From Runella rosea (GTDB lineage: Bacteria; Bacteroidota; Bacteroidia; Cytophagales; Spirosomataceae), in contig NZ_CP030850.1 in NCBI RefSeq assembly GCF_003325355.1, positions 1,054,001 through 1,118,000 of the forward strand: DNA of 64,000 nucleotides. The letters run 5' to 3'. The notes beneath the pieces were generated by a model, which was not told the DNA's origin, did no database searches, and saw nothing but the letters and a program-made list of their open reading frames with translations. Of this stretch, positions 492 through 560 are shown in pieces (within the stretch, counting starts at the first letter, position 1; each line of letters starts with the position of its first letter). The position numbers were made by a program, and so were the translations under genes.

Positions 492-560
492 CATTCATCC
501 CAAAAAAGGCCAATTAACCCCAAAAAGGGTCATTCTTCCCAAATCAGGGGCTATTATCCC
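492..560 (+). promoter_or_regulatory. Four phased ~20-bp direct repeats, candidate LytTR operator
   Basis: ATT followed two or three bases later by CCC recurs four times. ATT starts at 493, 513, 532 and 553, and CCC ends at 501, 521, 540 and 560. The first two CCC blocks are followed by a run of A and then GG; the third is followed by AAATCAGGGG. The period is about two helical turns. LytTR regulators typically bind spaced direct repeats on one DNA face, and the array sits directly after the LytTR gene and before the next gene. The assignment is inference; the repetition is seen directly. Confidence 0.5.

Follow-up and report, generated by a model that had tools for sequence, protein, structure and literature searches.

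Which protein reads the four phased repeats that separate a LytTR regulator gene from its neighbor in Runella rosea, and what do these repeats control? Membrane-bound transcription regulators are enriched in Bacteroidota (excerpts of PMC10269533), and within the open-licence literature—a scope mostly outside of which subscription journals lie—we found no described operator for the four-helix membrane LytTR family. We analyzed a stretch of 64,000 nt (contig NZ_CP030850.1, 1,054,001–1,118,000, forward strand; hereafter the window), which opens within a gene for such a regulator.

A repeat array behind a membrane LytTR regulator gene

The window contains the 3′ part of the regulator gene (positions 3–485, + strand; PF04397, 8.5e-17), with the stop codon at 483–485 and the start ~375 bases before the window (full-length match G000:C1:1053625-1054482). 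Its product of 286 residues unites four hydrophobic segments and a C-terminal LytTR domain in one protein, and a Pfam scan to E 0.1 returned no domain besides LytTR. Modeled with AlphaFold2 (40 sequences; pLDDT 88), the Runella limosa homologue features four long helices followed by a LytTR fold. When the modeled LytTR part was used in a fold search, LytTR domains ranked first, AgrA–DNA complexes among them. Compared at the sequence level, RCHRS of the regulator stands against FFRCHNS of AgrA, in which R198, N201, and S202 contact DNA (excerpts of PMC4227749). The R. rosea genome encodes one regulator of this family at E 1e-20, vs 74 LytTR-domain matches in all. Four-helix membrane LytTR proteins of this kind are found in Bacteroidota and some neighboring phyla; among 105 family members, hydropathy segments numbered four in 66, three in 34, two in four, and five in one. 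In all six full-length proteins of the family that were scanned, only LytTR exceeded the Pfam cut-off: an MHYT sensor domain was not found, and the four-helix part matched no Pfam family above that cut-off.

Downstream of this gene, ATT(N2–3)CCC occurs four times on the + strand, starting at 493, 513, 532, and 553, with the CCC runs ending at 501, 520/521, 540, and 560. This reproduces exactly the recurrence at 20, 19, and 21 bp described in an earlier sequence-only reading of the locus. Its statement that all repeats face one side of the helix holds approximately, as steps of 19–20 bp drift by ~1 bp each relative to 10.5 bp per turn (our own reckoning). Conservation extends beyond ATT..CCC: the unit starts with the TTG preceding ATT. 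Scored with a matrix built for the family, unit 1 (TTGTCATTCATCCCAA; 488–503, +) reached 20.2 bits and unit 3 (GGGTCATTCTTCCCAA; 527–542, +) 13.1 bits. Units 2 (GGCCAATTAACCCCAA; 508–523, +) and 4 (GGGGCTATTATCCCTT; 547–562, +) are weak, with 5.0 and 5.4 bits, respectively; the former keeps its place in an alignment of 23 arrays and the latter is proximal to the promoter.

Shuffled sequence and the lack of other pairs in the window rule out a chance origin of the array. Single ATT(N2–3)CCC matches are frequent in the 64 kb (67 on the + and 33 on the − strand), and a second pair at 19–21 bp is absent elsewhere on both strands. Among 20,000 dinucleotide-preserving shuffles of 486–627, a chain of two arose in 21 and a chain of three or four in none, and 100 shuffles of the whole window gave a chain of two in 16 and nothing longer. 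Genome-wide, the pair pattern CATTNNNCCC..ATTNNNCCC occurs at nine places, the window array included. The other eight are probably coding, since each falls within an open frame of at least 300 codons; the window array itself sits in the 501-codon, upstream-extended frame of the next gene. A model of the array spanning 116 positions (R1) found the window array as its sole strong match in the genome (E 1.4e-21; next match 0.07).

Related regulators are followed by similar arrays

Relatives of the regulator came from whole-genome searches and from a scan of named genomes (best 80 of 404 loci), the titles of which include Runella, Spirosoma, Larkinella, Emticicia, Pontibacter, Rufibacter, Chryseobacterium, Saprospiraceae, Bacteroidales, Fodinibius, Ignavibacteriae, Kapabacterium, and others. 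This yielded 127 regions of DNA behind the regulator, reduced to 105 by removing 22 near-duplicates; L133 was left out of the locus set (wrong frame taken), and L015 fell outside the scripted parse, with units visible by eye in its locus. Self-similarity of the 105 loci, computed motif-free, peaked only at lags of 19–20 (z 4.9, 6.9) and 39–40 (z 2.3, 5.0). The 102 regions upstream of the regulator gave no signal at lags 19–22, their largest excess (0.031) falling at another lag.

The weight-matrix consensus of the unit reads TTG(C/T)CA(T/A)(T/A)C(G/A)TCCC(A/T)(A/T). Loci inspected by eye provided the seed of the matrix, which was then trained on the same loci it counts; the lag test, resampled sequences, and control loci serve as checks on this circularity. 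At least two units within 140 nt were present in 68 of 105 loci (1.0 in resampled sequence). Of the 116 gaps between units in the relatives, 98 measured 19–21 bp. Under a linked-unit rule, an array directly follows the regulator stop codon in 67 of the 105 de-duplicated loci—counts that share common ancestry and are not independent events. Two units were scored in 31 of these arrays, three in 25, and four in 11; 36 of the 67 hence score three or four, and weak units are missed in this tally. The other 38 family loci contain no array within the first 160 nt, some having one further on and others none.

None of 40 distinct control LytTR loci harbored an array, which, set beside the 67 family loci, supports the proposal of the sequence-only reading that LytTR sites stand here in a row. 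The control set comprised 41 loci, with L022 and L157 being duplicates and orthologues not thinned, and hydropathy marks two of its members (L016 and L017) as membrane LytTR proteins, too. Beyond the first 150 nt, 588 kb of family loci held 13 unit pairs (10 loci), some of which are arrays further downstream. Measured from the end of the regulator gene, all 13 are at −23 or further downstream; over the upstream DNA available for the 105 loci, no pair was found 5′ of the regulator. An array was present in 63 of 73 loci with a next gene on the same strand vs 4 of 32 others (Fisher 4e-13), and the stop-to-start distance in those 63 loci had a median of 135 nt, with 125–155 nt in 38.

Variants of the half-site (CCC vs CAC, CATTC vs CAAAC) correlate with LytTR residues, yet we dropped this co-variation as evidence, because the correlations follow clades and are uncorrected for descent. 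In four Chryseobacterium loci (L093, L097, L099, and L107), the half-sites carry TCAC in place of TCCC, a possible natural shift in specificity; the next gene at L099 encodes an Rce1-like protease. A further locus from a genome of the same family as Runella (L132, G227) has a second unit pair at +1453 nt after the regulator stop, behind a barrel-like gene, and may hold two controlled promoters.

The array accompanies the regulator and also precedes distant genes

Comparing the DNA downstream of orthologous LytTR genes, as the sequence-only reading had suggested, spoke for its proposal in 13 Runella genomes. All eight with the regulator carry the array (R1, E ≤ 8.5e-19; five of these genomes were part of the R1 training set), and none of the five lacking it has an R1 match below E 0.02, G002 among the latter being 83% complete. 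In 29 relatives, the array (E 1e-4) was detected in 15 of 15 genomes with the regulator (E 1e-20), six of which contributed to R1 training, and in 1 of 14 without. Across 291 genomes of the order, the regulator occurs in 74, an array match in 38, and both in 35 (Fisher 4e-21; the two lists were compared by hand). A regulator without an array match (E 1e-3, R1) was recorded for 39 of the 74 genomes, in a run that used stricter filters and a model trained mainly on one family.

Three genomes (G026, G086, and G229) have an array match and no family regulator at E 1e-30; searching them at 1e-5 returned LytTR-domain matches only, or nothing. In G026 (C2), two-unit ATTCGTCCC-like arrays precede look-alike genes of ~405 and 462 aa (L236 and L250), and are possibly used by an ordinary LytTR protein. 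Elsewhere, at L251 (G006:C1:547665), TTTGAATTTGCCCCAATGG-like repeats with a period near 20 bp matched R1 at E 3e-4 and are apparently unrelated to the operator.

The gene following the array encodes a barrel-like protein in the Runella orthologues; elsewhere (20 proteins scanned), it specifies DUF2306, DUF2141, an acyltransferase, an Rce1-like protease, an ICMT/PEMT-like methyltransferase, or others. Because the downstream gene varies in this way, the array goes with the regulator and not with the barrel gene. In G011, a Runella genome without the regulator, the barrel homologue is reduced to three partial matches (G011:C33:375157-375721; L195–L197), as if it had been lost together with the regulator.

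Arrays are not confined to the regulator's immediate neighborhood. In five genomes, a gene distant from the regulator has an array as well (L231, L234, L185, L187, and L191), and in the genomes of the last three, the regulators (L199, L201, and L205) have arrays of their own. In G013 and G017, the regulator lacks an adjoining array and one stands elsewhere, before a DUF2306-like gene (family assigned by N-terminus likeness). In each of G308, G343, and G322, the sole regulator found is accompanied by an array, and another array precedes a barrel homologue in a locus where no regulator was found; the two arrays of G322 lie 41 kb apart, and G308 and G343 are 82% and 71% complete. Among 15 barrel homologues (L180–L194, the one in the window included), ten have an array and four have none, L194 being left out. 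Three of the four without (L189, L192, and L193) belong to genomes with a family regulator, and two regulators there (L203, L204) have no adjoining array, as judged from a check of 13 loci with L207–L210 left out. In R. rosea itself, a DUF2306 regulon was considered and rejected: the genome has a single distant homologue (38% identity over the match, one internal stop) without a preceding unit pair.

A Bacteroidota-type promoter adjoins the last unit

Unit 4 is followed on the + strand by a promoter of the Bacteroidota type, comprising a −33 element TTTG (566–569), 20 nt, and a −7 element TAGGTTTG (590–597; TAnnTTTG), both good. The array ends 29 nt before the −7 element, and its last CCC ends 5 nt before the TTTG. 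This arrangement is maintained in the family: of 46 loci defined by TAnnTTTG and a CCC 20–38 nt before it, 41 place the last CCC 29–30 nt upstream of TAnnTTTG. In a set of 44 rows picked for that distance, with units inside the core promoter outside the search, TTG occurs at the −33 spacing in 21 (3.9 expected from shuffles) and is absent from 23. Because inclusion in the alignment (A2) required CCC at set places as well as TAnnTTTG, invariance at these positions is built in.

The putative target gene (628–1968, +) is an open reading frame for 446 aa with a signal-like N-terminus and unassigned family. Its frame is open upstream to a TTG at 463; we prefer the start at 628 because the signal-like N-terminus and the orthologues fit it. 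The sequence-only reading had located the repeats between the regulator and a 'barrel' protein gene; the place is right, whereas the name found no backing in Pfam or NCBIfam, neither of which matched the protein. An AlphaFold2 model (3 sequences) reached a pLDDT of 29, and a barrel fold is hence not confirmed; we retain 'barrel' as a label. A terminator-like hairpin with a 10-pair stem (2072–2095) is located ~100 nt 3′ of this gene.

A predicted operator and how it might work

Comparison of the sequences establishes the array, its spacing, its position relative to the promoter, the company of the regulator family, and, in some genomes, copies before distant genes. The array displays the two-turn direct repeats typical of LytTR operators (20, 19, and 21 bp), lies like them close upstream of a promoter core (in 41 of 46 loci), and goes with a LytTR protein in 35 of 38 array genomes, the reverse association being weaker (35 of 74). 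We are therefore confident in predicting that 488–562 is the operator of the upstream membrane LytTR regulator and governs the gene at 628, most likely by activation.

In the mechanism we propose, the cytoplasmic LytTR domains would bind direct half-sites TTG(C/T)CA(T/A)(T/A)C(G/A)TCCC that recur every two helical turns. Each unit would take up one protomer, and the protomers would line up cooperatively on the same side of the helix. Since arrays of two, three, and four units are all common, a row of single-protomer sites, in the manner of the three-repeat CoxC operator, fits as well as dimer pairs do, and arrays with an odd number of units do not call for a strict pairing of dimers. The last half-site adjoins the −33 element; a LytTR domain there would touch RNA polymerase, and the gene at 628 would be transcribed from the promoter at 566–597 under control of the regulator, with activation as the most likely mode. 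The signal is presumably sensed by the four-helix membrane part. In general terms, an operator of two to four LytTR sites probably acts on the adjacent promoter as an activator element.

Why the operator stays behind the regulator gene while the controlled gene is swapped may have to do with delivery in cis, an idea that we consider doubtful. The regulator would be inserted into the membrane during its synthesis, drawing its own locus to the membrane, and the newly made protein would meet two to four half-sites at once. Gene order would then be part of the mechanism, and the operator would keep its place because co-synthetic insertion pulls the locus to the membrane.

Two features favor activation: none of the units in the window reaches −33, and the element at that place is often poor. 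The same operator could instead serve repression, with the unit beside −33 blocking RNA polymerase until a signal arrives. There is a precedent in CoxC, a membrane LytTR protein that represses from three direct repeats 18–21 bp apart overlapping a predicted −35 (excerpts of PMC11347149), and both promoter elements in the window are good. However, 5 nt separate the last CCC of the window array from the −33 TTTG, and the 23 of 44 loci missing a −33 TTG (among rows picked for the 29–30-nt distance) resemble activator-dependent promoters; we regard repression as rather unlikely.

It is quite improbable, in our view, that another factor—a soluble LytTR response regulator, for instance—binds the array and that its adjacency to the membrane regulator is an inherited neighborhood. 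Such a factor would account for the three genomes with an array match and no family regulator and for the 39 of 74 regulator genomes without an array match, and the 74 LytTR-domain matches of R. rosea offer candidates. Yet it sits poorly with the empty control loci (0 of 40 distinct), with the family regulator being present in 35 of 38 array genomes, with arrays that stay behind the regulator as the target genes change, and with those found before genes distant from it. Poorer still are the prospects of the array acting as RNA, its GGG/CCC hairpins and T-tract forming a terminator of the LytTR gene or a leader; we judge this highly implausible. A weak terminator-like match at 546–562, followed by a T run, speaks for it, whereas RNAalifold found no pair in 23 aligned arrays. 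Moreover, inspection by eye showed the CCC and the spacing to be kept, whereas GGG runs and a T8 tract are largely a trait of Runella arrays, and in the 23 aligned arrays the array precedes the promoter and therefore lies outside the target transcript. With no consensus pair behind that weak match, a terminator or RNA structure is disfavored.

As a predicted operator of the membrane regulator, the array yields a half-site consensus, defines the spacing and the fixed position relative to the promoter, and points to candidate targets across a large bacterial group; many of these targets are membrane or envelope proteins of unassigned function, such as DUF2306. It also makes testable how a membrane-fixed protein gets to its promoter and what number of LytTR domains is engaged there.

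Comparison with known LytTR systems

The published systems are compared here as portrayed in excerpts of the cited papers. CoxC of Afipia carboxidovorans, an MHYT–LytTR protein with three direct repeats at the coxB operator (PMC11347149), shares with the R. rosea system a membrane-bound LytTR regulator and direct repeats by a promoter, its steps of 18–21 bp bracketing those seen here. With four units, the window array has in common with the CoxC kind of operator that it comprises at least three two-turn repeats. The differences lie in the sensor—a seven-helix MHYT domain, not found in the window's family, for which four long helices are modeled—and in the CoxC half-site (TTNNNGCN), the repression, and the overlap with the predicted −35. 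RcoM1 of Paraburkholderia xenovorans, as told in the same source, likewise has more than two evenly spaced direct repeats in its LytTR operator, namely a triplet, but combines an N-terminal haem sensor, in contrast to a four-helix membrane part, with the half-site TTCNNGCA.

Closer in phylogeny are the LRS-like operons of Bacteroides thetaiotaomicron and B. ovatus, which encode LytTR proteins with several membrane segments and carry 11-bp direct repeats with an 11-bp spacer, 11 bp before a promoter of the form TGTA (TGTG in B. ovatus)-19-TATCTTTG (PMC6193735). The window promoter (TTTG, 20 nt, TAGGTTTG) resembles this TGTA-19-TATCTTTG arrangement, from the same phylum. Unlike the window's family, the Bacteroides operons, as described there, have two repeats with another half-site, upstream of the operon's own promoter, and a separate NfeD/DUF2154 membrane protein; in the window's family, two to four units stand behind the regulator and before another gene. 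Relative to LRS systems in general, the soluble LytTR protein with its separate inhibitory membrane protein is replaced by helices and LytTR in one polypeptide, and the repeats are not at the regulator's own promoter.

Two repeats are bound by PlnC and PlnD (9 bp each, 12 bp apart; PMC2714321) and, in the form GGCATTTCAT, by the E. coli activator YpdB, which has a single direct target, yhjX (PMC4847170). By eye, GGCATTTCAT is like TGTCATTCAT here, although LytTR half-sites have no common consensus according to the YpdB paper, and YpdB differs from the window regulator in being a response regulator with a receiver domain and two sites. Nearest in build is HigX of Caulobacter crescentus, in which four membrane helices are fused to LytTR without a periplasmic domain (PMC13384398); its reported motif, unlike the window array, is an 8-bp inverted repeat without spacer, derived from ChIP peaks at many genes. 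Seen against these systems, the R. rosea array would represent a variant of the LytTR direct-repeat operator, distinguished by its unusual number of units and its strongly conserved place.
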